From Gemmatimonadaceae bacterium (GTDB taxonomy: Bacteria > Gemmatimonadota > Gemmatimonadetes > Gemmatimonadales > Gemmatimonadaceae), in the NCBI GenBank assembly GCA_040882285.1, contig JBBEBQ010000011.1:1-64000 (forward strand): DNA of 64,000 nt. The letters run 5' to 3'. Below are positions 30,119 to 61,824 of this stretch, in pieces; positions within the stretch are counted from its first letter, which is position 1, and each line of letters opens with the position of its first letter. A program made the translations under genes and the position numbers. The notes beneath the pieces were generated by a model that was given only the letters and a program-made list of their open reading frames with translations, had not been told where the DNA came from and did no database searches.

Positions 30119-30120
30119 GG

Positions 30121-30891
30121 CTACTGAACCCTCACGGATAGCGGCAGCGTCCGAATCTCCGTCGGCGGGGGACGCTCGGATGCAGCGTCCAGCTGGAATT
30201 CGGTGACCTCTTTGCCGTCGCTGGTCACGAGGTCGGACCGCGCGAGGTTGACGTTCTGAATGAAGGGCGACGACTCCAGGTCACGCATGAACCGGGTCAG
30301 CGCTTGTATGTCGACTGTGTGTCCTATGATGCGGAACTGAGTGGCACGCCTGCCGATCGCCACGGCCTTCTCCCGCCGCGCCTTCTCCAGGCGGGCCCTT
30401 CCGGCCGGGGTAGTGGCCTCGCGCTGCAGCGCCACGATCTCGGAATCTGGAGCGGCCGCGCTCGGCGGAGCGCTCGTCTGCGCGATCGAAACGAGCCAGG
30501 TGTACTGCGGTACCACGCGGCTGATCTCTTCCAGAATGTGCGACCACATGAAGCGCGTATCGTCGATCGACTGGATCACGGCCAGCTGCCGCAGCACGAG
30601 GTCCCGCTCCGTCTCCGCCGCGACACGCGCCCGCAGAACGGTCGCGAAACGCGCCGAGTCCTGCAGCGCCGTCCGTTCCCGCTCGGCGAGCTCGCCACTG
30701 GCCTGCGCCTGACGCGTGAACATGAACGCGCCGAGTGCGACGGCGACGATCACCGCGATCACCGCGCCGACGAGGTACTTGTCCTTGACGCGGTCTCCGA
30801 GGGAGCCGAGCAGCTCCTTGGGACTGAAACCGCCCCCGCCGCCCCCGGCCGTCCGGCGCCTGGCGCCGGGTAACAGATTGATGTGAATCAT
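30121..30891 (-). CDS. pilN: PilN pilus assembly protein
   Basis: A 256-residue bitopic membrane protein. The extreme N-terminus MIHINLLPG is the conserved cytoplasmic peptide that binds PilM. A glycine-rich spacer, a helix at about 41-60 and a coiled-coil plus ferredoxin-like periplasmic domain follow. The spacer between INLLPG and the membrane helix (GGGGGG...KELLGSLGDRVKDK) is longer than in Pseudomonas. It lies 13 bases after pilM. Confidence 0.93.
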   Translation of the reverse strand: MIHINLLPGARRRTAGGGGGGFSPKELLGSLGDRVKDKYLVGAVIAVIVAVALGAFMFTRQAQASGELAERERTALQDSARFATVLRARVAAETERDLVLRQLAVIQSIDDTRFMWSHILEEISRVVPQYTWLVSIAQTSAPPSAAAPDSEIVALQREATTPAGRARLEKARREKAVAIGRRATQFRIIGHTVDIQALTRFMRDLESSPFIQNVNLARSDLVTSDGKEVTEFQLDAASERPPPTEIRTLPLSVRVQ

Positions 30892-30904
30892 GGTGTCTTC
30901 GCCC

Positions 30905-31951
30905 TCACCGGTTCCGGAGGGCGAGACCGACCGGAAGCATCAGCAGCGGCGCGACTTCATCCATCACCAGCGACTCCAGCGCGCCCGAGCGCATCTGCAG
31001 ATTCGCTAGCGGGTTGGCCAGCTCTACCGGGACACGCATACGCTTTCCGAGCACGTCATTGAGTCCCGGGGTGCGGGCGCCGCCGCCGCAGATGTACACC
31101 GAGCGGAGCGCCGCGCCGGCCTTCGCGGTCGAGAGCAGAAAGGCCACCGCGCGCTCGACGCCCACGGCGAGCTCCTCGACGCGCGCGTCCAGCACCGCGT
31201 CCACGTGCGCGGAGCGGTCGTACCCCGTGATGAGGGCGTTCGCGTCCTCGGCCGTGAGGCCGCGCTCGCGCTGCAGGTCCTCGCGCAGCCGCCGCGTCCC
31301 CACCGCGAGGTCGCGGGTCAGGACGGGAATGCCCGAGTCGAGAACGTTGATGTTGGTCACTTCGTGGCCGATGTTCATCAGCGCGACGATGCCGCTCATC
31401 GCCCCGGGATAATTCAGCTCGAACGCGTTGTGCAGGGCGAAGGCATCGACGTCCACGATCGACGGGGACAGCCCGGCCTCGCTCAGAAGCCGCAGCTTCG
31501 CCTCGACCAGGTCCCGCTTGGCCGCGACGAGCAGCACACTCATCTGGCTGTTGCCCTCGTCGTCAGGATCGAGAACCTGGAAGTCGAGCTCGACCGCGTC
31601 CATGTCATCGAACGGGACGTGCTGCTGCGCCTCCCAGCGCATCACCTCGCGCGCCTCCCGCTCGCCCACGCGCTCCGCCTGGATCTTCTTGACGATCACG
31701 TCGCGGCCGCCGACGGCGGTCACGACTTCCTTCGTCTTCACCTCGGCCATCGCCAGACACTCGCGGATCGCGTCGGCGACGATACCCGGATCCATGACCT
31801 CGCCCTCCACGATGGCATCCGTGGAAAGGGGGGCAATACCGACCTTGACCAGCTCCGGGGCACCCTTGGAGTGGTCGATCACTACTGCCTTGATCAGTCC
31901 GGAACCTATGTCTAGGCCAACGGTCGGCTTACGACGGCCGAGAAGCGCCAT
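30905..31951 (-). CDS. pilM: PilM actin-like pilus assembly ATPase
   Basis: A protein of about 348 residues starting at MALLGRRKPTVGLDIGSG; an upstream in-frame methionine would add 18 non-conserved residues. Actin-like phosphate loops are seen in GLDIGSGLIKAVVID and in MNIGHEVTNINVLDSGIPVLTRDL, and the adenosine loop in CGGGARTPGL. It forms the cytoplasmic ring that receives the PilN N-terminus. A TTGACA-type promoter lies just upstream. It is the first gene of pilMNOPQ. Confidence 0.95.
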   Translation of the reverse strand: MALLGRRKPTVGLDIGSGLIKAVVIDHSKGAPELVKVGIAPLSTDAIVEGEVMDPGIVADAIRECLAMAEVKTKEVVTAVGGRDVIVKKIQAERVGEREAREVMRWEAQQHVPFDDMDAVELDFQVLDPDDEGNSQMSVLLVAAKRDLVEAKLRLLSEAGLSPSIVDVDAFALHNAFELNYPGAMSGIVALMNIGHEVTNINVLDSGIPVLTRDLAVGTRRLREDLQRERGLTAEDANALITGYDRSAHVDAVLDARVEELAVGVERAVAFLLSTAKAGAALRSVYICGGGARTPGLNDVLGKRMRVPVELANPLANLQMRSGALESLVMDEVAPLLMLPVGLALRNR

Positions 31952-31973
31952 GCTGTCCTGGTGGAGGTTCGCT

Positions 31974-32002
31974 AAAGTCTGGCGCCCTGCCACCTTTGTC
32001 AA
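31974..32002 (-). promoter_or_regulatory. candidate promoter of the pilMNOPQ run
   Basis: On the minus strand a perfect TTGACA (31997-32002) is followed after 17 bases by GACTTT (31974-31979), a poor -10 match. The ATG of pilM is 23 bases further on. The surrounding 100 bases are AT-richer than the genes. Confidence 0.35.
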
Positions 32003-32177
32003 CAAAAACTTTAAGTGGCGCGCCTTAAACGATGCTCTTGCTTCTGCTTGTGCGGAGCGGGCCGGTTGATTTTCGGCCCCGACTCACGGCTTCCTTACAA
32101 CCAGCAAAACGATTCGGGCGGTCGGAGGTAACACTTCTCTCGCAAAATGCCCTTCCCCGGGCGCGGGCGCGGTTCGG

Positions 32178-47350: not shown

Positions 47351-49012
47351 ATGGCGCCACGCGCGCGGATAGGTGAGCGGCTGATCGAAGCCGGCCTCAT
47401 CAACAAACAACAACTCGAGAAGGGCCTGCAGGTCCACGCTGCCACCGGTGAGACGCTGGGCAAGACGCTGGTCAAGCTCGGCTATCTGGACGACGATTCG
47501 CTCGTGCGCACGCTGTGCGCGGACGCGGGCATCCCGTACGTCACGATGCAGGATGTCACGCTGGATCCGGCGGCCGTCGCGTCGCTGCCCGGCAACATCG
47601 CGACCAAGTACGCCGCCCTCCCGCTGCGGGACGACAACGGCCGGCTGCTCGTCGCCATGGCGGATCCGTTTCAGATCGAGGCGGTCACCGCCGTCGAGCG
47701 CGCCGCGCGGCGTCCCATCCGTGTCGTGGCCGCGCGGCGCGACAGCATCACCGCGATGATCGCGCGCGCGTACGACGGCAAGCCGATCGTCGCGCCGCCG
47801 CCGGCAGCGCGGCCGCAGCAGCCGGCATACGCCCCCGCGCCGATCCAGGTCATCGAGCAGGACGTGGGTGGCGACACGGTGAACGCAGCGGCGCTCGCGG
47901 AAGGGATCATCAAGCGTGGCGTCGAGCTGGGCGCGACCGACGTGCACATCGAGCCCATCGAGCACGAAACCCGGATCCGCTACCGGGTGGACGGGCTGCT
48001 GCAGGACGCGGGCGCGTACCCCAAGAACGTGCAGGCCCCGCTGCTGAGCCGGATCAAGATCATGGCGGGAGTGGACATCGCCGAGACGCGGCTGCCGCAG
48101 GACGGCCGGATCCGCACGACCGTGGGCTCGACCGACGTGGACATCCGCGTGTCCACGTATCCGACCATCTACGGCGAAGACGTGGTGCTCCGCATCCTGG
48201 ACCGCGGGCGCACGGCGCTCAAGCTGGAGGCGCTCGGCATCGCGCCCGACGATCTCGCGCTTTTGCGCCAGGTCATGCAGCGGCCGAACGGCTTGATCCC
48301 GGTCACCGGTCCTACCGGATCGGGAAAGACGACCACGCTGTACTCGGTGCTGTCCGAGCTGAATACGAACGAGCGGTGCATCATCACTCTCGAGGATCCC
48401 GTGGAGTACGAGCTGGCGACGGTACGGCAGTCGCAGATCAACGTGCGCGCGGGACTCACGTTCTCCTCCGGCCTGCGCTCCATCCTGCGGCACGATCCGG
48501 ACATCATTCTCGTCGGCGAGATCCGCGACAAGGACACGCTGCAGATAGCGCTCAGTGCCGCGCTCACCGGCCACCTCGTGCTCACCACCTTGCACACGAC
48601 GACCGCCGCGGGGGCCATCCCGCGGCTGATCGACATGGGGGCGGAGCCGTTCGTGCTGGCGTCCTCGATGCAGCTCGTGATCTCCCAGCGGCTCGTGCGC
48701 GTGCTGTGCGACAAGTGCAAGACGGTGATCGAAGTGCCCGAGGTGGTTCGCCAGCGGCACGGGCTGGACGACGAGCCGCTCTGGGGACCGAAGGGATGCG
48801 TCAACTGCCGGCAGACCGGCTATCGCGGCCGGATCGGCATCTTCGAGTTCCTGCCGGTGGACGACAACCTCTCGAGCGTGATCTACGAGCGCAGGCCCGC
48901 GGAAGAGATCCACCGCGTGTCGGGCCGCCCGACGATGTTCGACGACGGAATCGCCAAGGTCAAAGCCGGCGTGACCAGTCTGGACGAGCTGATCCGCGTG
49001 ATCGCGGCCTAG
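47351..49012 (+). CDS. pilus extension ATPase (PilB/GspE/MshE family)
   Basis: A 553-residue secretion ATPase that powers pilin polymerisation. The N-terminal T2SSE domain (about 1-135) starts RIGERLIEAGLINKQQLEKGL. The ATPase domain has Walker A GPTGSGKT (320-327), the Asp box and HDPDIILVGEIRD, plus a His box with TTLHTTTAAGAIPRL. A tetracysteine zinc motif (CDKC...CVNC, about 453-482) is intact. It heads the second pilus locus, corresponding to MshE. No retraction ATPase (PilT) is found in the window. Confidence 0.95.
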   Translation: MAPRARIGERLIEAGLINKQQLEKGLQVHAATGETLGKTLVKLGYLDDDSLVRTLCADAGIPYVTMQDVTLDPAAVASLPGNIATKYAALPLRDDNGRLLVAMADPFQIEAVTAVERAARRPIRVVAARRDSITAMIARAYDGKPIVAPPPAARPQQPAYAPAPIQVIEQDVGGDTVNAAALAEGIIKRGVELGATDVHIEPIEHETRIRYRVDGLLQDAGAYPKNVQAPLLSRIKIMAGVDIAETRLPQDGRIRTTVGSTDVDIRVSTYPTIYGEDVVLRILDRGRTALKLEALGIAPDDLALLRQVMQRPNGLIPVTGPTGSGKTTTLYSVLSELNTNERCIITLEDPVEYELATVRQSQINVRAGLTFSSGLRSILRHDPDIILVGEIRDKDTLQIALSAALTGHLVLTTLHTTTAAGAIPRLIDMGAEPFVLASSMQLVISQRLVRVLCDKCKTVIEVPEVVRQRHGLDDEPLWGPKGCVNCRQTGYRGRIGIFEFLPVDDNLSSVIYERRPAEEIHRVSGRPTMFDDGIAKVKAGVTSLDELIRVIAA

Positions 49013-49022
49013 GGAACCGACG

Positions 49023-50233
49023 TTGCCGCATTTCTGGTACGAAGCCCTGACCTCGACCGGCCAGGTCGAGAAGGCAACGATGGCGGCGACGAGCGAGGAG
49101 GATCTCGCCGAGCGCCTCCGGGAGAACGGCGCGTATCTCGTGCGCAGCCGTCCCGCGGAAAAGCCGGCGCCGGCCAGGAAGGCGGACGGCAAGGTGCCGC
49201 GCAAGCAGCTGCTCGCGCTCATCGAGTACATGGCCGGATCCGCGCAAGTCGGCTTGCCGATCATGACGACGCTGACCGACGTCGAGCCCCGGCTGGAATC
49301 CAAGCTGTTGCGGAAGATCGTCGCGGAGATGCGCGACACGATGTCGCTCGAGGGAAAGAGCCTCTCGGAGGCGATGCGCGAGCACCCGAAGGCCTTCGAT
49401 TCGTTCTACGTGAGCACCGTCGAGGCGGGCGAGGCGAGCGGACAGCTCGACTTCGTCCTGGAACAGCTCGTGAAGCACCTGGACTGGCAGGAAGCCCTCG
49501 GATCGCAGATCCGGCAAGCCGTCACGTATCCGATCATCATCGTGGTGGCGATCATCGGCCTGCTGCTCGTGCTCGTGGGATTCGTCTTTCCGCGTCTGAT
49601 TCCGATTCTTACCTCGCGAGCCGTGGAGCTTCCGCTCGCTACGAGGCTCGTCATCGGCGCGTCCGAGGTCATCCGCGACTTCTGGCTGGTCGGAGTGGCG
49701 GCGGCGGTCGGCGCGGCGCTGCTTCTCGCGGTCGCGCGCCGGCAGGAGGACATCGCGACCGCGATCGACGCGGCGGTGCTGCGCGTGCCTCTCTTCGGCG
49801 AGCTCATCCTCCAGATCAACATGGCCCGGCTCGTCACGTACCTCTCGCTCTTTTACAGGACCGGATTAGACATCATCCTGTCGCTCAAGCTGACCGCCAA
49901 TATGGTGCGGAACCGGGCTATCGCGCGCGCGATCGACGGCGTGCGCGAGGGAGTCACCGGCGGCGAGTCCCTCGGCATCGCGTTCGGAGCGTCGCCGCTG
50001 TTCCCACCCATAGTGCTGCGGAGCATCACGCTCGGGGAGGTCACCGGCCACCTGGACGACGCCCTCCAGCGCACGTCTGTCTACTACGAGCGTGAAGTAC
50101 CCGCCGCGGTGAAGCGGATGGTCACGGGATTGCAGCCGCTGCTCATCGTGTTCATGGGGGGGGGGTTCTGCTCGTTGCGCTCGCGATCATCCTCCCCATC
50201 CTCGGCATCTACGATTCCATCGGCCGGCGATGA
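49023..50233 (+). CDS. pilus inner-membrane platform protein (PilC/GspF/MshG), frameshifted at poly-G
   Basis: A GspF-family platform protein of about 403 residues with a TTG start, 10 bases after the ATPase gene. Two T2SSF domains are clear (LLALIEYMAGSAQVGLPIMTTL... and MARLVTYLSLFYRTGLDIILSL). At 50156-50165 a run of ten G after LLIVFM puts the sequence out of frame. With 8 or 11 G the frame continues VLLVALAIILPILGIYDSIGRR, the expected last membrane helix, and stops at TGA 50231-50233, which overlaps the next start codon as ATGA. As written, translation instead runs in a meaningless frame to 50420. Confidence 0.88.
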
Positions 50234-51738
50234 ACAAGCCTTCCGCGCGGCGGTTCGGAGCGCTGATAGGTCCCGATCGCGTGTACGTGATCGAGTATGT
50301 GCGGCAGGCCGCCGGCGTCGAGATCATGAACCACATGAGCGTCGCGCGCAGCATGCCGAGCGTCGAGGAAGCGAGCGATGCCCTCGTGGAGCTGATCCGG
50401 CCGGCGGCGGGACGGGATAAAGCTCAGGTCACCGCGGCCATTCGTGGATTCGGCATTTCCTACCAGCTCTTGACGCTGCCGCCCGCGGGCGCTGACGTGC
50501 TCGCGCCGATCATCGATCGCGAGATGCGGAGAATGTTTCCCGACATCGAGGACCCGCTCGTCGGCTTCGCGCTGGGCGGTAGCATCGATCGCCGCACGGG
50601 ACGGCCCGCGCCGGCGGCAGCGAAGAAGGGGATGCCTGAGCGGCGCAGCACCGCCACCGGCGAGAGTCTCCCGCTTGCGATATTCGCGGCCGCGGCGCCG
50701 CGGCATGTCGTGAGCACCGTCGCCGCGACGCTCGAACGCGCGGGGATCCGGCTGGAGCACCTGACCGTCGTGCCGCAGGCGATGGCGCGGCTGTGTCGAG
50801 AGGTTAACGGCTCGCCGCAGCCGGCCGCGCTGGCGATCATGCTGCAGGGGTCGCCGGTCATCGGAGTGTTTCAGGGCGGCGACGTGCGGTTCATATCAGA
50901 GCCGCCGACCTTCGAGGAGGGTCTGTCCTCAGTCGACGTTCAGACCGTGATCGACCAGGTAGGCCGTGCCCGCATGTACATGCGACAACACTTCCGGGGC
51001 GCGGACATCGGCAGGATCTTCGTCGCGGCCGATCCCGCCGACCACTCGCACGTGGACGCGGTGCTCAACGCCGCCCTGAACATGGAGGTTGTGCCGTTGG
51101 CGCCAGCCGTGGGGCCGGCGGCGGCGATCGCCGCGCTGGGCAGCATCCTCAATGCGGAATCGAATCCCGAGATGGTCTTTTACCCGTCGCCCGGGGACGT
51201 CAGCCGGGATGCGGCCAGGCGGCGAGCCCGCAGCCTGACGATGGCCGCGGGCGCGGTGTGCGCGCTCGCGATCATGACGGCGGCGTTCTCGTCGGTGGCG
51301 GCCACGCGGGCCGCGGGCGAGCTGCGGACGGAGCGCGCCGCCGCCGACGCGCGGATGGCGAGCATCGCGCCGGCCATGGACGTGATCGCCGAGCGGCGCG
51401 CGAACATGGAACGCATTGCCGCGACTCAGGAGCACTATGCCAGCCGACAGCAACTCGCGCGGCTGATCAACGGCATCCGCCTGGCTCAGCCGTTGAACGT
51501 CGGCCTGAGCAGCGCGAGCTTGACGCGCACGAGCGAAGGCTGGAGGGTGGACCTCGCCGGAACCGCCGTGGGATCTACCGGCGCGGACGTGCTGGAGGGC
51601 GTCGCCGACTTCTCGCGTGAGCTACCGGCGAGAATCCCGCTCCAGTCCTTCAACATGAGCGCGTTCGAGTACGGTTCCGGCGAGGGCGAGATGTCCGGCA
51701 GCTTTCGAATCAGCTTCACCGTGGCGGCCGTTCCATGA
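50230..51738 (+). CDS. MshI-like protein (PilM-like plus PilN-like fusion)
   Basis: A 502-residue bitopic protein. Residues about 10-325 have an actin-like (PilM/GspL) pattern (FGALIGPDRVYVIEYVRQ, then RIFVAADPADHSHVDAVL). One membrane helix lies near 338-360. A coiled coil and a ferredoxin-like periplasmic domain (SRQQLARLINGIRLAQPLNVGL) resemble PilN. This combination is characteristic of MshI and GspL. The actin glycine loops are poorly conserved, so ATP binding is doubtful. It begins at an ATGA shared with the platform gene's restored stop. Confidence 0.85.
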   Translation: MNKPSARRFGALIGPDRVYVIEYVRQAAGVEIMNHMSVARSMPSVEEASDALVELIRPAAGRDKAQVTAAIRGFGISYQLLTLPPAGADVLAPIIDREMRRMFPDIEDPLVGFALGGSIDRRTGRPAPAAAKKGMPERRSTATGESLPLAIFAAAAPRHVVSTVAATLERAGIRLEHLTVVPQAMARLCREVNGSPQPAALAIMLQGSPVIGVFQGGDVRFISEPPTFEEGLSSVDVQTVIDQVGRARMYMRQHFRGADIGRIFVAADPADHSHVDAVLNAALNMEVVPLAPAVGPAAAIAALGSILNAESNPEMVFYPSPGDVSRDAARRRARSLTMAAGAVCALAIMTAAFSSVAATRAAGELRTERAAADARMASIAPAMDVIAERRANMERIAATQEHYASRQQLARLINGIRLAQPLNVGLSSASLTRTSEGWRVDLAGTAVGSTGADVLEGVADFSRELPARIPLQSFNMSAFEYGSGEGEMSGSFRISFTVAAVP

Positions 51739-52331
51739 AAGACCTGAAGCTCGCGGACGTGGGCGCGTACCTCTCCAGAAATCGCCACGCGGCCAGGCTG
51801 CTCGGCGTGACCACACTCGTCGTGGCGATGTCCGCGTGGACGTCGTGTTCCGCGCTGCGCACGACCAAGGAGGCGCGCGCAGCGACTTGGGAGGCCGCCG
51901 CCATCGGTGAAACGGCGACACGGTTTTCCCGACAGTTCGTCCCCGCGACCATCGGAGAAACCGAGGAATGGGCGCGCACGACCGAGGAAGCCGCCGCTTT
52001 CGGAGCGCCGGAAGCCACGAAGGTGTCGCTGGCGCAGACCGTATCGCGCATCGCGGAAGTCGCCGGCATGTCAACGGTGAAGGCGAGCTTCATTCCGCCC
52101 GACTCCGTCGGCCTGGCCGATACCCGCAGGATGGGCGATCTCACGTTCGAGCCGGGCACGTTCGGCCTGCGGCTCGAGGCCAACGGGACGGTGCCGGCCC
52201 TGGCGCGCGTGATACTGCGGCTTCCGCCGGCAACGGAGATCACATCGCTTTCCATTTCCGGCCACACCGACCAACTGAAGGCAACTTTTCATCTCGCGGT
52301 GTATCACCCTGCCGGAGGGCCGCAAAATTAA
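51735..52331 (+). CDS. PilO/MshJ-like pilus assembly protein
   Basis: A 198-residue bitopic protein with one hydrophobic helix at about 22-38, a helical stalk and a C-terminal ferredoxin-like domain (FGLRLEANGTVPALARVILRLPPATEITSLSISG), the arrangement of PilO, GspM and MshJ. The sequence itself is divergent, so size, topology and position between the MshI-like and PilP-like genes carry the assignment. It overlaps the previous gene by four bases. Confidence 0.75.
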   Translation: MKDLKLADVGAYLSRNRHAARLLGVTTLVVAMSAWTSCSALRTTKEARAATWEAAAIGETATRFSRQFVPATIGETEEWARTTEEAAAFGAPEATKVSLAQTVSRIAEVAGMSTVKASFIPPDSVGLADTRRMGDLTFEPGTFGLRLEANGTVPALARVILRLPPATEITSLSISGHTDQLKATFHLAVYHPAGGPQN

Positions 52332-52815
52332 GGGCGACAGTTCGGACCATTCCAATTACATTTGGCTCGCCATCGCGGCGGGGGTGATCGTTGCGTTCGG
52401 GGTGGCCTGGCGCACAAACGCCGCGGCTGCCGCGGTCGTACGCGCGCCGAAGAGCTACATCGCTCCGTCCGCGCTCGATTCGCTGGGGCGGTACCTGCGG
52501 CCGATCGCGCTCACGCCGGCGCGCGGGCAGGGCCAGGCCGCCGAGCTGTTCGTGCGGGACGACTACTACGCGCAGCCCGCGCCGCGGGAGCGGAATTCCG
52601 GCGGGTCGTCCGCGCCGGCGGGTCCGGCACGGCCGCGATGGGTTGTGAGCGCGATTCTGCTGACGGACGCTCAGCGCATGGCGGTGGTCAACGATTCTGT
52701 CGTGGTCGTGGGCTCCACGCTGCCGGGCGGCGCGCGGATCTTGGAGATCCAATCGGATCGGGTGGTGTTGCAGGAGTCTGGTGGTGTTCGGAGAGTCATC
52801 TCCTTGAATAGGTGA
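52327..52815 (+). CDS. PilP/MshK-like protein with probable ATT start
   Basis: A protein of about 162 residues: a short cytoplasmic segment, one membrane helix (NYIWLAIAAGVIVAFGVAW), a linker and a small beta domain (WVVSAILLTDAQRMAVVNDSVVVVG...ILEIQSDRVVLQES) of the PilP/GspC/MshK kind. There is no ATG, GTG or TTG before the helix: the frame is closed by TGA at 52276. GTG at 52384 would cut the helix in half. ATT at 52327 has GGAGGG seven bases upstream and overlaps the previous stop (ATTAA), so it is the best start. Confidence 0.72.
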   Translation: MKGDSSDHSNYIWLAIAAGVIVAFGVAWRTNAAAAAVVRAPKSYIAPSALDSLGRYLRPIALTPARGQGQAAELFVRDDYYAQPAPRERNSGGSSAPAGPARPRWVVSAILLTDAQRMAVVNDSVVVVGSTLPGGARILEIQSDRVVLQESGGVRRVISLNR

Positions 52816-52819
52816 GGCA

Positions 52820-54511
52820 GTGATGCTTGGGATCAGCTCGACCGGAACGGAACGAGCGTTGAGGTTCTCGATCGCGTTCGCGGCGATCGTTCTGGCGGCG
52901 AACGCGTGTGCCAGCGCGCCGCGCGCGACGGAGGGCACGCGCACCGCCGCAGACGTCGCCGACGTTGCCGGCGCGAACGACCGGGTCGACGCCTTGCCCG
53001 CGCTCCCCGTTGCGCAGGTCGCGGAGGGCGGCCGGTCCGCGCCCCGGATCCAGCGGTTCGATGCCGTGGAGCAGGATCTTCGCACGGCGCTTCGCGGACT
53101 GGCGCAGAGCTTCGGCCTCGGTCTCGAGATCGACCCCGACGTGCACGGGCTGGTGAACACGCGGCTGGAAAACGTCACGCTCGACGAAGCGCTGGCGAGT
53201 CTCCTCGCGCGGCATTCGTACGCGTATCAGATCCAGGGCGGAGTGCTGCGTGTCACAGGTTCGCGCATGCAGTCGAAGACCTTTTCGCTGGACTACGTGT
53301 CGCTGAGCCGGATCTCCGCCACGCAGACGGTGGTGACCAGCGGACTCAGCACGGGCGGAGTCGGCGGCCAGCAACTTGGCGGCCAGCAACTTGGCGGGCA
53401 GCAGCTCGGGGGACAGCAGGTCGGCGGAGGTGGAGGCGGCTCGCAGATCTCCAGCACCACCGCGGCGAATCTTTGGCAGGACGTCCGCATCGCGTTGGAA
53501 GCGCTCGTGTTTTATGACATCACGTCCGACAGTGCGCGCCAGATCGTGTCGGCGGCGACGGCCGAAGGCACGACCGGGATCGCTCCGATAAATGCGGCGA
53601 GCTCAGTGCTCGGTATCGCCGCCGGCGCGCCGGGCGCGACGGCAAAGACGTCGGGCGATGGCCGCCGGCTCATCATCAATCCGCTCGCGGGTAGCATCTT
53701 CGTCACGGCCCCACCCTCCACTCTCGATCTGGTCGAGTCGTACATCGCCTCATTCCAGGCGTCGGTCCAGCGACAGGTCCTCGTCGAGGCGAAGATCGTT
53801 CGCGTATCGCTGAACAGGGAGTTCCGGTTCGGCATCAACTGGCAGCTCTTGACGAGCAAGGCCCGGCTCAACATCGGCGCGCCGGTCTCGCAGACGAACA
53901 CGTTTTCCATCACTCTCGGTGGCGGAACGTCGCAGGTCAGCATCGCCCTCGAAGCGCTCGAGAGTCAGGGTGAAGTGGCGGTGCTCTCGAGCCCCATGAT
54001 CACCGCGCTGAACAACCAGATGGCTGTCTTCGATGCCACCAGTGCGGAAGTCTTCTTCGCAGTGACACAAACACCGGTAGTAGGCACCGGCGGCTCGGTA
54101 GTGCTCACTTCTCAGGTGCAGCCGCAGCAAGTATCGGTCGGGATCGTATTGAACGTGCTGGCCCAGATAGGAGCCGACAACGTCATCACGATGCAGATTC
54201 GTCCGCAGCTCAGCGAAGTGTCACGCGTAGAAGAGTTCATCACGCCGGAGGGCGGGAGGATCACCGCGCCCGTCATTACGCGGCGCGAAACCGACACGAT
54301 GGCGCGAGTGCGCGGCGGCGAGACGATAGTGATCGGCGGGTTGACCCAGACGAGACGCGACCGCACGCGGACCGGCGTTCCCGGGCTCAGCCGCGTCCCC
54401 GGCATAGGCGGGCTGTTCGGCGGGCGGTCGGACGTCGAGGAGAAGGACGAGCTCGTGATCTTCCTTACCCCCACGATCATCGTGGGAGCCCAGCAAACCG
54501 CCGGCCGATAG
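52820..54511 (+). CDS. MshL/GspD-type secretin
   Basis: A 563-residue outer-membrane secretin with a leader that may be lipidated (AANACAS). The N0/STN domain is IQRFDAVEQDLRTALRGLAQSFGLGLEIDPDV (about 76-110). The barrel domain runs from about 290 to 555 with VEAKIVRVSLN, the VASLSSP-type block (here VAVLSSPMITALNN), GGETIVIGGL and ELVIFLTPTII. A low-complexity insert of LGGQQ repeats and polyglycine separates N0 from the barrel. Lack of AMIN domains and the context favour MshL over PilQ. The start may be GTG or the next codon, ATG. Confidence 0.93.
   Translation: MMLGISSTGTERALRFSIAFAAIVLAANACASAPRATEGTRTAADVADVAGANDRVDALPALPVAQVAEGGRSAPRIQRFDAVEQDLRTALRGLAQSFGLGLEIDPDVHGLVNTRLENVTLDEALASLLARHSYAYQIQGGVLRVTGSRMQSKTFSLDYVSLSRISATQTVVTSGLSTGGVGGQQLGGQQLGGQQLGGQQVGGGGGGSQISSTTAANLWQDVRIALEALVFYDITSDSARQIVSAATAEGTTGIAPINAASSVLGIAAGAPGATAKTSGDGRRLIINPLAGSIFVTAPPSTLDLVESYIASFQASVQRQVLVEAKIVRVSLNREFRFGINWQLLTSKARLNIGAPVSQTNTFSITLGGGTSQVSIALEALESQGEVAVLSSPMITALNNQMAVFDATSAEVFFAVTQTPVVGTGGSVVLTSQVQPQQVSVGIVLNVLAQIGADNVITMQIRPQLSEVSRVEEFITPEGGRITAPVITRRETDTMARVRGGETIVIGGLTQTRRDRTRTGVPGLSRVPGIGGLFGGRSDVEEKDELVIFLTPTIIVGAQQTAGR
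53363..53422 (+). repeat. 15-bp tandem repeat encoding LGGQQ units in the secretin
   Basis: Four 15-base units; the first two are identical (GGCGGCCAGCAACTT) and the next two diverge at a few positions. They encode successive GGQQL/V pentapeptides and are followed by a polyglycine run. Being in frame, copy-number change would alter linker length without breaking the protein. Confidence 0.92.
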
Positions 54512-54514
54512 AGG

Positions 54515-55477
54515 ATGTACGAGCAGTTCTATGGTCTCACCGAGCGCCCGTTCTCACTCACGCCGAGCCCGCGGTACGTCTTCTATTCGGACCGATACAG
54601 AACGGCGCTGGACGAGCTCACCTACGGCATAGACCGCAAAGAGGGGTTCATGCTCCTCACCGGCCTGCCCGGGACCGGCAAGACCACGCTGTCGCGCGAC
54701 CTGCTGGAGAAGCTGGACCCCGACAAGCACCGCTCGGCGCTGATCTTCAACCCGTTCCTGAACGGGCCCGAGATGCTGCAGGCGCTGCTCACCGAGTTCG
54801 GCGTCGAGTACCAGGATAACGCGCCGCGCAACGAGCTGTTGAGCAGGCTCAACAAGTTCTTCCTCGAGCAGCTGGCCGCGGGCCGGACGTGCGTGGCGAT
54901 CTTCGACGAAGCGCAGCACCTCTCTTCGGAATTCCTCGAGCAGATCCGCGTCCTGTCGAATCTCGAGACCGCCGATGAGAAGCTCATCCAGATAGTGCTC
55001 GTAGGCCAGCCCGAGCTGAGCCAGCGGCTCAAGATGCCGGGGATGGCGCAGCTCAGCCAGCGAGTTTCCGTGCGCTCGGCGCTCACGTTCCTCAACCTCG
55101 ACGAGACGAAGCGGTACATCTATCACCGGCTCAACGTCGCCGGCGCGCGCGGCCGCCTCGAGTTCACCGGGCCCGCGATCAGCGCGATCTACAAGGCGGC
55201 GCACGGCATTCCGCGCAGGATCAACGCCATATGCGATCAGGCGCTGCTCGCCGGGTTCGTCTCGCAGACGCAGAAGATCGGCGTCCCCGAGGTGAAGCAG
55301 GCCGTCGCGTCGCTGCGCGGCGACGAGGCTGATCCCACTCCCGAGAGAAGGCAGCGGCGGATGAAGCTGATGTTCATCGCCGGGCTGGTGCTGTTTCTGC
55401 TCGCCCTGATCGCGGTGTCGCTGCTGGCGCTGCATGGCGCGGGGTTGATCGTCGTGCCGGGGCTGCCACCCATATGA
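54515..55477 (+). CDS. ExeA/MshM-like AAA ATPase
   Basis: A 320-residue ATPase with the family N-terminus YEQFYGLTERPFSLTPSPRYVF, Walker A GLPGTGKT at 50-57, Walker B CVAIFDEAQHLS and the GHGIPRRINAICDQALL-type sensor 2 (here AHGIPRRINAICDQALL). One C-terminal membrane helix (about 288-310) anchors it, as in ExeA, which places secretins in the peptidoglycan; MshM is the MSHA homologue. It ends in an ATGA overlap with the TPR protein. Confidence 0.93.
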   Translation: MYEQFYGLTERPFSLTPSPRYVFYSDRYRTALDELTYGIDRKEGFMLLTGLPGTGKTTLSRDLLEKLDPDKHRSALIFNPFLNGPEMLQALLTEFGVEYQDNAPRNELLSRLNKFFLEQLAAGRTCVAIFDEAQHLSSEFLEQIRVLSNLETADEKLIQIVLVGQPELSQRLKMPGMAQLSQRVSVRSALTFLNLDETKRYIYHRLNVAGARGRLEFTGPAISAIYKAAHGIPRRINAICDQALLAGFVSQTQKIGVPEVKQAVASLRGDEADPTPERRQRRMKLMFIAGLVLFLLALIAVSLLALHGAGLIVVPGLPPI

Positions 55478-56598
55478 GCCTCATAGCCGATGCCCTCAAG
55501 GCCGCGCAAAAGGAGAAGGCGCGGCGCGTCACGCCGCCGGCGCGCGCCCAGCAGCAGCAGGGATATTTCCCGTTCCGCTTTCCAACCCGCGGCTCGGGCG
55601 AGCCGATCGTATCGCCGCTCGCCATCGGGCTTGGTGTGGCGACGGCGGCGATCGCGCTGACCGCGCTGGTGGTGATGTTCAGCTCGTCGCGCCGGCCCGA
55701 CACGCGGTCGCCCGCGCTCGCGCAGTTCCCCGATTCGGCTCCGGCCACGCTGGTGCTCGAGACGCCCGGCGATCCGGGCGGGCTCGCGCTGCTGGACACG
55801 ACTGCTGAAGATCTCGCGGTGCCGGACGATCTCGAAGAATACGCGGACGAGCCGCCGGCGCGGACGGCCTCGCGCGCTCCCGCGCGCAGAGTGCCGGCGC
55901 CGCAGCCGCGGGACGACCTGGGAGACACGGACGACCCGCTGCCGGCGATCGCGGCCAATTCCCCCGTCCGGTCGGGAAGCAGCTCTGGCGGGCGACTGCA
56001 GATCACCGTGGACCGCCCGATCCAGGGATCTCAGGGCGGCGGCTTGTTCGAGCAGGGACTCGCGGCGCAACGGCGCGGCGATTACGAGACCGCGAAGAAC
56101 CGATATCTGCAGGCGACGTACGAGCAGCCGCGCAGTCTCGAGCTGTGGAACAATCTCGGAACGGTTTACCGCTCCCTCAATGACCTGTCGGGCGCCGAGG
56201 GAGCATTTCGCACCGCGACCGAAATAGACCGGAGCTTCGCTCCCGCCTGGAACAACCTCGGGCTCGTGCTCGCCCAGCAGGGCCGGGCTCAGGATGCGAT
56301 GATCGCGCTCCACGAAGCGGTTCGGCTCGATCCTGCCAACTCCGGCGCGAAGGTCAACCTGGCGATCGAGCTGCACAAAGCCGGTGCCGTTGCCGACGCG
56401 CGCACGCTGCTGGAGGAAGCCGTTCGCGCGGAGCCGGCGATGGCCGAAGCGCACTACGAGCTTGGCAGGGTGCTGGAGAAGCAGAACGATCGCGGCGCAG
56501 CCGCCCGCGAGTACCGGCTCTTTCTCGCTACCGCGGGTGGCCGCTTCCCCGCGCTGGAGCAGGCAGTGCGCAACAGGCTCGCGCGGATGGGGCAGTGA
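55474..56598 (+). CDS. MshN-like TPR protein
   Basis: A 374-residue bitopic protein. The N-terminus MSLIADALKAAQKEK matches the short cytoplasmic motif of GspB/MshN proteins. A membrane helix lies at about 50-70, then a proline/acidic disordered linker, then at least four TPR units (about 195-370, e.g. ELWNNLGTVYRSLNDLSGAEGAF). Its place directly after the ExeA-type ATPase is that of MshN. The start overlaps the preceding gene and the stop overlaps the next GTG. Confidence 0.85.
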   Translation: MSLIADALKAAQKEKARRVTPPARAQQQQGYFPFRFPTRGSGEPIVSPLAIGLGVATAAIALTALVVMFSSSRRPDTRSPALAQFPDSAPATLVLETPGDPGGLALLDTTAEDLAVPDDLEEYADEPPARTASRAPARRVPAPQPRDDLGDTDDPLPAIAANSPVRSGSSSGGRLQITVDRPIQGSQGGGLFEQGLAAQRRGDYETAKNRYLQATYEQPRSLELWNNLGTVYRSLNDLSGAEGAFRTATEIDRSFAPAWNNLGLVLAQQGRAQDAMIALHEAVRLDPANSGAKVNLAIELHKAGAVADARTLLEEAVRAEPAMAEAHYELGRVLEKQNDRGAAAREYRLFLATAGGRFPALEQAVRNRLARMGQ

Positions 56599-57101
56599 GG
56601 GCTCTCGCCGCGGCGTCGGCTCTGGTAGCCCTGGCCTGCGCGCCGACCATCACGCCGCTACCGCGCCCGGGCGCGGAACTGCCGCCGCTGCCGGTCGAGG
56701 AGGTGAGCATCATCACCGCTCCCCCGGCGGTCGGCGAACCCGCCGGCGCGCAACCTCGAGTGACGCTCAACGCGTCGCGCGCGGACGTTCGGGTGCTGAT
56801 TCCGGCGCTGGCGGAGATCGCGGGCTTGAGCGTCGTGATGGACAGCACTGTGCGGGGAACTGTGGCGGTGCGGTTCGAGAATCTGCCGGCTGTGGAGGCC
56901 CTACTCGCCGTGATCGACGCGGCCGGGCTGGCGGTGGAGACCGGCATCGAGAAGCCGTGGCCGGAGTCCGTGTTCCATCAGCCGCCGGTGAACGTCAACA
57001 CCGCTCCCGCCGCGGTGATCAGCGCGCGTTTCGGCGTGAGCGCGAAACTGGCCGAGTGGATCGTGAAGTCGAAGCCGGTGCTGTTCGTCACCGATCCCTG
57101 A
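56595..57101 (+). CDS. STN (secretin N0) domain lipoprotein with helix-hairpin-helix-like tail
   Basis: A 168-residue protein with a GTG start (GTGA overlap with the TPR gene). The leader ends in ALAC, a plausible lipobox. Residues about 55-115 (VTLNASRADVRVLIPALAEIAG...GTVAVRFENLPAVEALLAVI) form a secretin/TonB short N-terminal domain. The tail NVNTAPAAVISARFGVSAKLAEWIV resembles the HhH motif of ComEA and GspK. I know of no named family with this pairing. It may bind the secretin or pilins. It converges on the O-antigen-ligase-type gene with a 14-base overlap. Confidence 0.7.
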   Translation: MRALAAASALVALACAPTITPLPRPGAELPPLPVEEVSIITAPPAVGEPAGAQPRVTLNASRADVRVLIPALAEIAGLSVVMDSTVRGTVAVRFENLPAVEALLAVIDAAGLAVETGIEKPWPESVFHQPPVNVNTAPAAVISARFGVSAKLAEWIVKSKPVLFVTDP

Positions 57102-59421
57102 TCCACCGGATCGGACCGCAGTCGGTACCCTCACCTTGCAATGCAGGCGCCGAAGTGAGGGGTGCCAGCCTGGTCAGCGGTGGAAGCGGAGCGCACGCCG
57201 CACCGGAGGCGGCTGACAGTGCGGCGGCTTCCGGTCGGTGCGCCGCGTCCAGCGCCCGCTGGGTCAGCGCGATGACTTCGCGGTCGTTTCGCAAGCGTTC
57301 GATCTGTGGGCGGCTGACGTGCCAGAGAAAGAACGGACCATGGCGTCTGTACAAGTACGCCGTGCCAAGCTCGGCGGCGGGCTCGTGGTATCCCCACCGG
57401 AGCGTTGTCCCGAGGACCTCGGCGATTAGCTCGGGACGCGGCTCGAAGCCGCGCTCCGACGCGCTCTTGAGCCACGCGGCTGCGTCGACGTAGCGCCCGA
57501 GCGCGAAGTAGGCCTCACCGATGTACGCGTGAGTCTGGCCGAGCGGCGGATATGCCGCATATGCCCCTTCGAACTCTCGCAGCGCAAGCTGCGGGTACCC
57601 GCCGACGAGCAGGACGTTGCCAAGCACGAGTCGAGGCTGCACGCGCCGCGGCGCAAGCTCGACAGCCCGCTGGAAGCTCTCGAGCGCCGGGACGGAATAG
57701 CGAGCGTCCCTGTAGTACGAGGCGGCGAGCAACGCGATGCGCCCTTTCTGGATCGCAAGGCGTTCGTTCAGCGGATCGCGTTTGATCTCCTGCTCGACCG
57801 CGCGGAACGCCAGCGCGAGTGAGCTGTCCATCGCGGCGGCGGTGCGCGGGTCGGACCGTATGTCGTCGAAATGCGGCTGGAGCCAGCGGAGATAGCTCGA
57901 GTACTGCAGGTAAGCGTGATAGGTCGCCGGAGCGGGCGAGCTGAAGACCGCCTGAAAATCCCGGAGTGCCAACCGGACGGGTCGATCGCGTTCCTCCGCA
58001 TGATGCAAAACGCGGAGGGTGCGGAGTGTTTCGAACGCATGGATGTAGAGCGCGGCCGCAAGCACGAGCCCGCCGGCGCCGAGCACGACGTTGGTCTGCC
58101 AGCGCGGCTCGCGGCGCGTCCCGAATTGAAGCAGATGGCTGGATCCTGCGGCGCCGGTGACGAACGCCGCCAGCGCCAGCCAGAGAAAGGTCGAATTGAG
58201 ATCGAAAAACCAGAAGAAAAGGAAGAACGCGTACGCGGCGAAGAAACCGGCGGCGATCGCCGCGTCACCCGGGTCGAGCTCGTGCCCGGTCCTGCGCTTC
58301 GTGACTGCGCGAAAGAGCAGGAGCCAGATGGCGACGAGCGCCGCGAAGCCGAGGACGCCGGCGGACGTGAAGGCATCGAGGTAAGCGTTGTGGGCCCGGT
58401 CCCAGCGATCGTCGCTGCCCAGGACGCCGTACATCTCCGGCTGGAAATTCTCGCTCCAGACGAGGTGGTAGTTCTCGGGGCCGTAGCCGAACAGCGGCCG
58501 CTGTCGGATTCCGCCGAGCGCGGCCTGCCATTGCGTGACGCGGCTCGGGTCGCCGGTCGCGCTCGTGCCGGCCAGCCTGCTCAGGACAGGGACGCTGGCC
58601 GCAGCGGCGCGAGCCGGGGAAGTGCGCGCCAGGAGGGGGAGCATCGCCACGACGAACACGAACGCTCCGGCTGCTGCGGCGCGCATGGGCGTGAGACGGG
58701 AAGTCAGCCGCCAGTACACCAGAAAGCCGAAGGCCACTCCCGCCAAGCCGCCAACGAGCGAGCTGCGGTTCGCCGAGAGAACGATGGTAGCTACGAAGAG
58801 CGGGACGAGGGCGAAGTACCCGAGCCGGGCGATGCCATGCGAGCGGCGCGCGAGCAACAGCGCCACGGCGACGGTACCCAGCAGGTAAGCCGCGAGGAAG
58901 CCCGGGTTCCCCAGTGTCGCGCCCGCGTCCGCACCTTTGAATCCGAGACCGAGGACATCGCCGCGGTACTGGATCAGGGCGAGCAGGGACACGACGGCGC
59001 CGACGACGACGACGTTCCGGAAATAGCGCACCCACTCCGTGGAATCGAAGAAGGTGCGCAGCGCGACGTAGTACGCGAGGAAGTGGAGCCAGCTCCATAC
59101 GCCCCCCATCCTCTCGAAATCTCCGAACACGCTGCGGAGCGGCGACGGGCCGACGATCGCGGCGAGCGTGTTCGCGCCGAGGAAGGCGACGAGTGCCCAG
59201 AATATCCAGTCGCGCCGGTCAAGCTTGGTCTCGTGCCGAAGAAGCAGAACTACGAGGACGGCGGTAGCGAGCTCGACGAGAACCCGGAAGTAAACGGCCC
59301 GGGTGGTGACGAACGCGAAGTAAAAGCCTGGAATGAGAATCAACGGGACCAGCACGGTGGCATGCAACAACCACCGCGCGACCGCCACCAATCGTAAACT
59401 CCTAGCGGACGTTATCGGCAC
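57088..59421 (-). CDS. O-antigen ligase/oligosaccharyltransferase-like membrane protein with TPR-like tail
   Basis: A 777-residue protein. About 12 membrane helices span residues 10-470, with the long periplasmic loop and ligase motifs (SANRSSLVGG, then RQRPLFGYGPENY and RAHNAYLDAFTSAGVLGF) of the Wzy_C family. The C-terminal 280 residues are helical TPR-like repeats (LESFQRAVELAPRRVQPRL). This family includes the LPS ligase WaaL and the pilin oligosaccharyltransferases PglL/TfpO. Adjacency to three pilin genes favours glycoprotein transfer, but this is inference. The last 40 residues look unstructured. Confidence 0.85.
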   Translation of the reverse strand: MPITSARSLRLVAVARWLLHATVLVPLILIPGFYFAFVTTRAVYFRVLVELATAVLVVLLLRHETKLDRRDWIFWALVAFLGANTLAAIVGPSPLRSVFGDFERMGGVWSWLHFLAYYVALRTFFDSTEWVRYFRNVVVVGAVVSLLALIQYRGDVLGLGFKGADAGATLGNPGFLAAYLLGTVAVALLLARRSHGIARLGYFALVPLFVATIVLSANRSSLVGGLAGVAFGFLVYWRLTSRLTPMRAAAAGAFVFVVAMLPLLARTSPARAAAASVPVLSRLAGTSATGDPSRVTQWQAALGGIRQRPLFGYGPENYHLVWSENFQPEMYGVLGSDDRWDRAHNAYLDAFTSAGVLGFAALVAIWLLLFRAVTKRRTGHELDPGDAAIAAGFFAAYAFFLFFWFFDLNSTFLWLALAAFVTGAAGSSHLLQFGTRREPRWQTNVVLGAGGLVLAAALYIHAFETLRTLRVLHHAEERDRPVRLALRDFQAVFSSPAPATYHAYLQYSSYLRWLQPHFDDIRSDPRTAAAMDSSLALAFRAVEQEIKRDPLNERLAIQKGRIALLAASYYRDARYSVPALESFQRAVELAPRRVQPRLVLGNVLLVGGYPQLALREFEGAYAAYPPLGQTHAYIGEAYFALGRYVDAAAWLKSASERGFEPRPELIAEVLGTTLRWGYHEPAAELGTAYLYRRHGPFFLWHVSRPQIERLRNDREVIALTQRALDAAHRPEAAALSAASGAACAPLPPLTRLAPLTSAPALQGEGTDCGPIRWIRDR
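57091..57114. terminator. hairpin between convergent genes
   Basis: A perfect 7-bp stem CCGATCC/GGATCGG with a 10-base loop lies where the STN lipoprotein gene and the ligase gene meet, with no T-run on either side. It might help bidirectional termination. Confidence 0.4.
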
Positions 59422-59493: not shown

Positions 59494-60108
59494 TTAGTTG
59501 ATCGGAACCGCGTAATAAACTGCCTGGGTAGCCGCGCTTCCCTCCCGGAACTTGCCGGTAGTGCTGGGGGCCAATTCGCCTTCCCCGTCGATCAGGTCGT
59601 TGATCGCCGCGAACTTCGCGGCATCAAGCCCGTTGATGACCACGGAGACGAAGCCGCCAATGCCCGTTTGCTGATCGAGGGTGCACGCGCTCGTGGCGGC
59701 GAAGCACCGGCGAAGTTTCGCATTGATAGTCGCGCCGAAGGCTGTCGGTATCGCGGTCGAATCGACCTGAGTGTTCTTCTCAATGATGGACGCATCGATG
59801 TACGGGCCCTTCCAAGCGGTATTCGAGCTGAAGGATCCGCCACCGAAAGCCGAGTCTCCGCTCGTGGCTGGCGCATACGCGAGATCCTCCAGGTCACCCG
59901 GGAACTGCGGCCGCATGTTAATACGGAACAGGTTGATGCCCGTCTTGATATTCGTCAGATCGGCCGCGACCCGAACCGGATCCTCCTTGCCCAACTGCCC
60001 GATCACGCCCGGCGCGAGAATCGCGACCAGGATCGACAGGATCAGCAAGGTCACCAAAATTTCAATAAGCGTGAAGCCCTTCCGCACCATCTTCGCGACC
60101 TTCTTCAT
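59494..60108 (-). CDS. GspG-like type IV pilin/pseudopilin
   Basis: A 204-residue prepilin with leader MKKVAKMVRKG, G|F site and Glu5 (FTLIEILVTLLILSILVAILAP). The AWKGPYID segment (about 98-105) is the KGPY hallmark of major pseudopilins, and two Cys (RRCFA, SACT) may pair. A strong GGAGGAAGG ribosome site lies just upstream. The C-terminus (STTGKFREGS...YYAVPIN) is shared with the two upstream pilin genes, so the three are paralogues. It is followed by a strong terminator. Confidence 0.92.
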   Translation of the reverse strand: MKKVAKMVRKGFTLIEILVTLLILSILVAILAPGVIGQLGKEDPVRVAADLTNIKTGINLFRINMRPQFPGDLEDLAYAPATSGDSAFGGGSFSSNTAWKGPYIDASIIEKNTQVDSTAIPTAFGATINAKLRRCFAATSACTLDQQTGIGGFVSVVINGLDAAKFAAINDLIDGEGELAPSTTGKFREGSAATQAVYYAVPIN

Positions 60109-60518: not shown

Positions 60519-61064
60519 TTACTGGATCGGTACGGCCCGATAGAGCGCGTCCGCCCCGCTCAGCACGAACCGGCCCGTGGTGGAGCTGGCGATTTCATCT
60601 ACGATCCGGTCAACATCGTCGAAGGCCTCGGTATTGAGGTTTTTAACCTGGATCGTGACATACTCTATGCCGTTATAGTTGCTCTTCACTAACGGACCCT
60701 GGATCGTGCCGCCCGACCCGGTACGAAGACTGTCACCCGGAGAGAACGGTTCCTTCGTGATGTACGGCCCCTTCCACTGGCTCGCGAGTCCGGCCGTATA
60801 TGCGACGACGTTGATGTCGAAGTCGGAATTGGTGACCGCCGTCACCAGGTGGCCGACGCTGCTCGGGTATCGCTTCACGTCCGACGCAAACGTGCTGATC
60901 CCGGTCTGCAGCGCCACCAGATCGTTAGCAGTCCGGGTGGCGTCCCCCTTGGAGATCTGCCCCATCAGCGCCGGCAGCAGCACCGCAGCCAAAGTGGCCA
61001 GGATGGCGATCGTTACGAGAACTTCCGCGAGCGTGAAGCCGCCGCGCGTCTGCCTGGATTTCAT
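60519..61064 (-). CDS. GspG-like type IV pilin/pseudopilin
   Basis: A 181-residue prepilin with leader MKSRQTRGG, G|F site and Glu5 (FTLAEVLVTIAILATLAAVLLPAL). It has the WKGPYI motif and a C-terminus (STTGRF...YRAVPIQ) shared with its two neighbours. It has no Cys. An AGGAGC ribosome site lies upstream and only 26 bases separate it from the preceding pilin gene, so these two share a transcript. Confidence 0.92.
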   Translation of the reverse strand: MKSRQTRGGFTLAEVLVTIAILATLAAVLLPALMGQISKGDATRTANDLVALQTGISTFASDVKRYPSSVGHLVTAVTNSDFDINVVAYTAGLASQWKGPYITKEPFSPGDSLRTGSGGTIQGPLVKSNYNGIEYVTIQVKNLNTEAFDDVDRIVDEIASSTTGRFVLSGADALYRAVPIQ

Positions 61065-61090: not shown

Positions 61091-61630
61091 TTACTGAATC
61101 GGGATGGCGAAAAACTGCGCCACGCTGGATACCGCGTTGTACTGCAGTTGCCCCGTACTCGAGCTCACTGTCTCGTCGATTATCTCGTCCAGTCGATTGA
61201 AGTCCGTGGGAGTGATCGGCGAGACGTCAACCCTGACGTACTGAATTCCGTTGTACAAGCCTGGAACGAACGGACCCAGGATGTTCGCCCCGAACCCGGT
61301 CGACAGCTCACCGCCGGTCGTCAGCGCCTTCGCCAGGTACGGACCCTTCCACCGATTGGCCAGCCCGACCGAATACGTGTTCCCGTTGATGTCGATCAAG
61401 CCGGTGATCGGCGAAGCCAGCTGCGTGAGCGACGCGGGATACCGCCGAACGTCCGTCACGAACGTGTTGATCGCGGTCTGCACCGCCAGCAGGTCCGTTG
61501 ATCCCCGGGTTGCCTCACCCTTCGAGAGCTGGCTGTTCAACGCCGGCAACAGCACCGCCGCCAGCGTCGCGATGATCGCGATCGTCACGAGAACCTCGGC
61601 CAGCGTGAATCCCTTGCGCCGCGACTTCAT
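61091..61630 (-). CDS. GspG-like type IV pilin/pseudopilin
   Basis: A prepilin of about 179 residues starting MKSRRKGFTLAEVLVT; an in-frame ATG two codons earlier (MTMKSRR) is equally possible. It has the G|F site, Glu5, WKGPYL and the SSTGQLQ...FFAIPIQ ending. The first 60 residues are nearly identical in pattern to the downstream paralogue, while the globular parts differ. It is the first gene of the pilin run, divergent from the AAA regulator at the right edge. Confidence 0.92.
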   Translation of the reverse strand: MKSRRKGFTLAEVLVTIAIIATLAAVLLPALNSQLSKGEATRGSTDLLAVQTAINTFVTDVRRYPASLTQLASPITGLIDINGNTYSVGLANRWKGPYLAKALTTGGELSTGFGANILGPFVPGLYNGIQYVRVDVSPITPTDFNRLDEIIDETVSSSTGQLQYNAVSSVAQFFAIPIQ

Positions 61631-61792
61631 TGTCATCCATCCCGGAGTGTGAGCGGTTGTCAACATGCTTCGGTGCGCACTATACACGCCCGCCGTCACC
61701 AGGCCATTACAACCGGACCCCCGCACATGACAACGGCACCTACGGTCGGTCGCTGGCCGTAGCGACACGAAAGTAGGGCGGATTCGCCAAAG

Positions 61793-61824
61793 CCGCAATA
61801 ACAAACTCATTGGTGCTATTGCGG
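61793..61824. promoter_or_regulatory. inverted repeat, candidate operator between divergent genes
   Basis: CCGCAATA and TATTGCGG form a perfect 8-bp inverted repeat separated by 16 bases. It lies in the 265-base gap between the pilin run and the divergently transcribed AAA regulator gene. The spacing of about two DNA turns suits a dimeric regulator. Confidence 0.4.

Follow-up and report, generated by a model that had tools for sequence, protein, structure and literature searches.

Free-standing secretin N0 domains carried on lipoproteins are known from type IV secretion systems (T4SS). In the Legionella Dot/Icm T4BSS, DotD is an outer-membrane lipoprotein with a disordered N-terminal stretch and an N0-like domain, and it serves DotH, whose outer-membrane targeting requires both the presence of DotD and its beta-strand lid, according to the available part of the report (PMC2951367). 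Xanthomonas (Xac) VirB7 is a VirB9-binding T4SS component and an oligomerising lipoprotein with a C-terminal, self-associating N0; the portion of its report that was available mentions no HhH (PMC3093366). TcpQ, BfpG and LngC are small secretin helpers encoded in type IV pilus operons (type IVb pili) and are required for their secretins or pili; for TcpQ and BfpG this concerns secretin stability, location or multimer formation, and BfpG was proposed not to be a lipoprotein, as stated in the accessible sections of PMC4971541. Helix-hairpin-helix (HhH) domains are found in ComEA, as a tandem (HhH)2, and in the minor pseudopilin GspK (T2SSK), whose HhH is of the NVNTAP type. In Vibrio ComEA, DNA binding was lost when one or the other HhH was missing, and K63, one of the K62/K63 lysine pair after the hairpin, was of major importance, as far as the available part of that report goes (PMC3879209). 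PilQ and MshL secretins, too, have an N0 domain.

In a 64,000-nucleotide stretch of a Gemmatimonadaceae bacterium (the window; contig JBBEBQ010000011.1, genome completeness 96.6%), we have identified a gene of 168 codons encoding a predicted lipoprotein that joins an N0 domain to an HhH tail. Its open reading frame lies where a preliminary description had placed it and ends with a stop codon at 57099-57101, and it is the last plus-strand gene of the following run.

47351-49012 (+): MshE/GspE-like ATPase, with T2SSE and MshEN matches in Pfam
49023-50420 (+): MshG/GspF-like platform protein, with T2SSF and GspF matches
50230-51738 (+): PilM/PilN-like fused protein, named from its position and a weak Amuc_1101 match (E 0.019)
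51735-52331 (+): PilO-like protein, named from position only
52384-52815 (+): PilP/GspC/MshK-like protein, with T2SSB (2.6e-4) and T2SSC (6.6e-4) matches, both under cut-off
52820-54511 (+): MshL-like secretin with its own N0; TIGR02519 1.1e-63, 214.9 bits (cut-off 250.2), and Secretin 7.7e-40
54515-55477 (+): MshM/ExeA-like ATPase; AAA_22 8e-26 and TIGR03015 1e-82, under cut-off
55474-56598 (+): MshN-like TPR protein, with TPR matches, named by position
56595-57101 (+): N0-HhH lipoprotein gene, with nine homologues aligned with it and dN < dS in all five pairs compared

The mandatory MSHA set consists of mshA, mshE, mshG, mshL and mshM, according to the available part of PMC6668835. Relatives of E, G, L and M are present in the operon, MshL being under the curated cut-off and the G protein being named from its T2SSF/GspF matches, while mshA was not identified and T2SSG-like pilins lie nearby; the MshE-, GspF-, MshL- and MshM-like neighbours agree with the earlier view of the operon as MSHA-like. 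The PilM/PilN-like protein gave no Pfam match and was matched in those relatives whose locus extends to it, and the PilO-like protein gave no family match in Pfam or NCBIfam. The GspF-like ORF continues after its homology stops, near residue 380, and into the gene that follows, and the tblastn match to this protein in a related genome (G061) likewise breaks at residue 381. Since the ORF is longer than its homology, there is doubt about its end and its C-terminal part, and a frameshift or a wrong end is possible.

The GTG start of the N0-HhH gene shares four bases with the TGA stop of the mshN-like gene, an overlap that suggests translational coupling, and the mshN-like start in turn shares bases with the stop of mshM (ATGA). 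A scan of 56500-57300 turned up neither a promoter-like nor a terminator-like site. A convergent gene follows, with a Wzy_C/O-antigen-ligase-like product. Past it, on the minus strand, lie three prepilin-like genes with N_methyl motifs (59494-60108, 60519-61064 and 61091-61810), two of the three with weak T2SSG matches, which are possibly pilins of the MSHA-like machine. A second cluster, of the T4aP type, is found at 27154-32005 (-), comprising a PilQ-like secretin (27154-29058) and PilO-, PilN- and PilM-like ORFs, named from the look of their sequences and from position.

The 168-residue protein can be divided into four parts.

56595-56639 (+): predicted signal peptide with a lipobox-like Cys15
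56640-56753 (+): Pro-rich linker, residues 16-53, with a short beta strand at residues 37-42 in the AF2 model
56754-56951 (+): secretin N0 domain of the PilQ type, residues 54-119, by profile and structure comparison
56970-57074 (+): HhH tail, residues 126-160, with helices 139-146 and 150-158, by AF2 and profile comparison

The lipobox-like Cys follows a hydrophobic stretch and is invariant in all ten members of the family described below, with Ala or Gly at position -1 and never Asp at +2, in agreement with the small lipoprotein that had been proposed. Outer-membrane sorting of lipoproteins is commonly judged by the E. coli Lol rule, under which a Cys followed by no Asp points to the outer membrane; the protein is thus predicted, from its sequence, to be lipidated and located there.

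The assignment of residues 54-119 to a PilQ-type secretin N0 is secure by sequence profile and agrees with the modelled fold. Scanned as a single sequence, the protein stayed under the Pfam cut-offs, with GspD_N0 at E=2.2e-5 (24.7 bits, cut-off 27) and STN at 0.067 (13.5 bits, cut-off 28.4), and an NCBIfam PilQ match over residues 55-115 (2.7e-6) was far under the cut-off of its model; when the members of the nine-member alignment were scanned singly at E<=1, STN was matched in eight of the nine and GspD_N0 in six. The family profile, in contrast to the single sequence, was significant against the PDB, reaching 5.5e-10 to 5.6e-6 with PilQ chains, and 5.5e-4 or weaker with GspD. Modelling with AF2 gave the N0 fold both for the window protein (mean pLDDT 72.5, pTM 0.46) and for a member from genus group g14 (68.0, 0.37), although the two models are not independent, as their alignments (9 and 10 rows) draw on one set of sequences. 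The structure Z scores of the window and g14 models were 6.6 and 7.4 with the PilQ N0, 6.3 and 7.5 with the XcpQ N0 and 6.4 and 6.2 with DotD. For the g14 model, an anti-sigma factor (Z 6.7) and phage-tail-like baseplate proteins (6.3 for that of a diffocin), all of the N0 fold, came near the DotD values; as the scores are middling (below 8) and other kinds of protein score alike, DotD does not stand out by fold. Foldseek returned no PDB match at E<=0.001. Strand 37-42, a candidate counterpart of the DotD lid, is present in the window model and absent from the g14 model, and the DotD alignment begins at residue 37 with the first and not with the second. A Secretin, N1 or AMIN domain was not matched in the protein by Pfam, so that it shares the N0 of PilQ and MshL and differs from them in having no match to N1, AMIN or the secretin barrel.

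The tail is securely an HhH by profile comparison. Here too the single-sequence Pfam matches lay under the cut-offs, for HHH_3 (E 0.011; 16.2 bits, cut-off 27) and for T2SSK (0.011; 16.6 bits, cut-off 24.2, at model positions 1-16 of 63), and the nine aligned members scanned singly at E<=1 gave HHH_3 in five (best 6.6e-4) and T2SSK in four. The profile of ten tails matched 23 ComEA-type domains of the phylum, to which some proteins contributed two domains each, over 33 columns with a score of 43.9, for which E is 1.3e-9 in a single comparison; 100 column shuffles did not exceed 19.9. It matched eight Tex domains at 38.3 (shuffle maximum 15.0) and six Gemmatimonadota GspK at 33.7 (maximum 16.0), again with 100 shuffles. 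Fifteen of 27 T2SSK loci were taken, giving the six GspK domains and adding five to Tex; the other four were left out as ComEA-like, unclear or misread. An earlier comparison with 26 HhH domains, three of them Tex (38 HhH matches, 30 with loci, minus four without sequence at contig ends), had scored 45.3, with no more than 16.6 in 200 shuffles. The pairing of STN/N0 with HhH claimed in the preliminary description, for which a profile search of both halves had been proposed as the check, was therefore confirmed with family profiles. The likeness of the tail to ComEA and GspK held in that both exceed the shuffles for the ten-member profile; the ComEA match spans 33-34 columns and covers only the first HhH of the ComEA-type (HhH)2.

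By eye, the 200 bases past the stop codon (some 140 in G042, where the contig ends) showed no second HhH in any of the three forward frames in the ten members; the short tail is thus not the frameshift of one genome, and a frameshifted longer HhH domain was rejected. In the AF2 models the tail helices lie in blocks with pLDDT 78-85 (window) and at residues 158-165 and 169-179 (g14). The window-model tail gave retroviral integrase N-terminal domains on top (Z 2.9-3.1), then RadA (2.5) and the ComEA-related 2duy (2.4), Z being little informative at such a size.

A profile search of 395 Gemmatimonadota genomes with the nine-member alignment, in which the best nine candidates per genome were scored, found ten full-length members from four genera and two families; the other 12 matches listed were N0-only and fell within 649- to 831-aa frames. 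The MshM protein, our chosen marker of the operon, was found at 58% identity or more in the same ten genomes (best five candidates per genome scored), the next match being at 44% in G342, and the 58% line was set after seeing this value. As few candidates were scored per genome, distant members may be missed. G342 was rejected as an eleventh operon genome, since no recognised pilus gene was found in the 3.4 kb around its MshM-like ATPase. This locus (L088 237-1250, 1243-2508 and 2503-3393) shows, by eye, an ExeA/XrtA-type ATPase beside glycosyltransferase-like and secreted-looking ORFs, and is perhaps of a polysaccharide or exosortase type.

The N0-HhH gene follows mshN in nine of the ten genomes, the window included, so that the proposed check of relatives for the gene after mshN came out as expected in all but G158, where the gene is still in the operon, flanked by the PilO-like gene and pilin-like ORFs and upstream of the PilP-like, MshL, MshM and MshN genes. 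Several prepilin-like ORFs on both strands occupy the interval between it and the PilP-like gene in that genome (L065 13267-15867). Contig ends cut three of the loci (G006, G039 and G079) at mshL, and that of G061 begins inside mshE. A scan of named genomes gave one locus, L034, whose protein is identical to that of G061 and was therefore counted once; a relative at 81% protein identity is a Gemmatimonadaceae MAG, and tblastn against plasmids gave one partial match (residues 22-108). In each of the pairs compared dN was below dS, as between the window and G061 over residues 15-160 (0.098 vs 0.995, with dS near saturation). The tail is the best-conserved part, with a mean between-genus identity of 52% against 34% for the N0 and 9 of 35 invariant columns against 3 of 66. 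By computation, then, the N0-HhH proteins are a real family under purifying selection, and their gene is tied to one kind of Gemmatimonadota pilus operon within the genomes searched.

In our opinion, the best reading of the N0-HhH protein is a role at the secretin. Most likely, by analogy with DotD and TcpQ, it would be a helper of MshL in which the HhH serves as a protein-docking module, the partner being suggested by the gene neighbourhood and the fold. To its fuller form, an outer-membrane lipoprotein facing the periplasm and dedicated to assisting the MshL-like secretin in an MSHA-like pilus machine, we give about an even chance. In this scheme the lipidated Cys15 would be the anchor in the outer membrane, and the flexible Pro-rich linker would position the N0 beside the ring of secretin N0s; there it might pack side by side with them, as proposed for DotD and Xanthomonas VirB7. 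The protein may thereby help in targeting, assembling or stabilising the secretin, and its tail may dock a protein, most likely on the pilus side (a minor pilin or the tip) or among MshN/PilP-like inner-membrane parts. That no other part is as constrained as the tail argues for an obligate contact.

The analogies have their limits. DotD is without an HhH tail and works in a T4BSS, whereas the neighbours of the N0-HhH gene are MSHA/T2SS-like and not T4BSS core, and Pfam lists no DotD family model for these proteins at E<=1. A TcpQ family model is likewise absent from the Pfam matches at E<=1, where filters drop weak matches, and chain R of the BfpBG complex, taken as BfpG, shows a weak likeness in fold (Z 4.0); BfpG is not mentioned in the available part of PMC12114550. 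As the MshL secretin already has its own N0, a further one is not obviously needed, which speaks against the helper reading. Against protein docking stands the fact that the best sequence match of the tail, for the whole family, is ComEA, which is of the DNA-binding type. TcpQ, BfpG and LngC are not known to carry an HhH.

An alternative we consider unlikely is that the tail is a GspK-like tip-contact module, by which the lipoprotein would receive the growing pilus tip, or replace the missing GspK-type HhH of the machine, at the secretin entrance. The score with the six GspK is well above its shuffles, and group g1 alone scores higher with GspK (36.6) than with ComEA (33.6). The tail of the g14 model fits GspK XcpX, from the XcpVWX complex, to 1.4 A across 35 residues at 31% identity (Z 3.1, its top tail row, RAD51 and SAM-domain rows following at 2.2-2.8), a PDB profile match to type II GspK was obtained at 0.059, and T2SSK does not reach its cut-off in seven of the ten gene-bearing genomes (g1, g5 and G158). 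However, ComEA outscores GspK with the ten-member profile and with each of g14, g5 and G158 alone, and Tex also stands above GspK. The four genus groups alone score 28.7 to 33.6 with ComEA, above the shuffles, whereas with GspK g5 reaches 26.3, g14 20.3 and G158 only 13.6, within the shuffles, all of these being column shuffles drawn from the ten-member alignment and not from the genus groups. T2SSK does exceed its cut-off at other loci in the three g14 genomes, in part within 760-830 aa frames which probably encode Tex. GspK is, moreover, a minor pseudopilin, while the N0-HhH protein is a predicted lipoprotein with an N0 and a lipobox-type signal, no N_methyl match and no prepilin leader.

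The preliminary description had also suggested a link between the pilus and DNA uptake. In this case the tail would bind DNA at the secretin mouth, copies arranged in a ring would offset the missing second HhH, and the pilus would be linked to DNA import or adhesion, which we regard as rather improbable. ComEA HhH1 is the best match of the ten-member profile, an Arg or Lys at residue 160, aligned by our count with Vibrio ComEA R71, is kept in all ten members, and the net charge of the tail is 0 to +4. Yet that charge falls to 0 or +1 in the G158 and g14 members, and the protein differs from ComEA in having an N0 and a lipobox and in lacking a second HhH. The position of Vibrio ComEA K63 is in our alignment Leu, Ile, Val or Thr in ten of ten, although this is a weak test of DNA binding, as Leu also stands there in 22 of 26 HhH domains of the phylum. 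A ComEA-like gene is encoded elsewhere in the genome, with its (HhH)2 domain at G000:C11:100872-101054, about 44 kb past the tail gene on the same contig. With one HhH absent and no Lys at the K63 position, DNA is the weaker candidate, and we infer that docking of a protein is favoured; the proposed link to DNA uptake is not supported.

Perhaps the protein is a natural fusion that combines an N0 and a GspK-type HhH in a single lipidated polypeptide, copies of which would ring the mouth of the secretin and carry an HhH crown that would dock the pilus tip (or capture DNA) and couple its arrival to the opening of the channel. Such an arrangement, which we find quite unlikely, would if true be a new kind of secretin-gate component. 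Gating of the secretin by the N0-HhH protein, the other suggestion in the preliminary description, could be a candidate role.

The N0 is more similar to that of the T4aP-type PilQ of the same genome (39% identity, E 6.8e-8) than to the N0 of the MshL in its own operon (33%, 5.3e-5), and it could therefore serve PilQ while being merely encoded with the MSHA-like operon, a point against the MshL-helper reading. We hold this very unlikely to be its role, however, as the full-length gene was found in no more than 10 of 395 genomes, namely the ones that have the MSHA-like operon, whereas large ORFs with an N0-only match occur widely within the family. Finally, a relic or truncated secretin, in which the N0 runs into the decayed start of an N1 in a gene that is not functional, has next to no chance of being correct and was rejected: the N0 is secretin-like and the junction VFYQ, as we assume, loosely resembles the start of N1, but the full MshL profile (8 sequences) scored 11.6 with the tail, no better than noise, where the HhH profile reached 45.3 in that run, the reversed tail scored 9.9 with ComEA, these low scores showing that the tail is not a decayed N1, AF2 shows two helices, and purifying selection and similar length hold across the ten genomes.

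In the open-licence literature searched, where absence is weak evidence, we have found no report of an N0 paired with an HhH, nor in that literature any report on an MSHA secretin of Gemmatimonadetes or on an STN-domain lipoprotein of type IV pili. Each of the components, whether N0 lipoproteins, HhH domains or MSHA operons, is familiar by itself; what appears new, within the open-licence literature and the Gemmatimonadota genomes searched, is their combination. We regard the way in which the tip of a pilus or pseudopilus meets the secretin as poorly resolved. As both domains of the N0-HhH protein are known from parts on the two sides of the secretin entrance, it offers a small, testable handle on this meeting. 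With a helper role at the MshL-like secretin, the idea of free-standing N0 lipoproteins in T4SS and of small secretin helpers in type IVb pili would extend to the MSHA-like machines of Gemmatimonadota, with an HhH module added.
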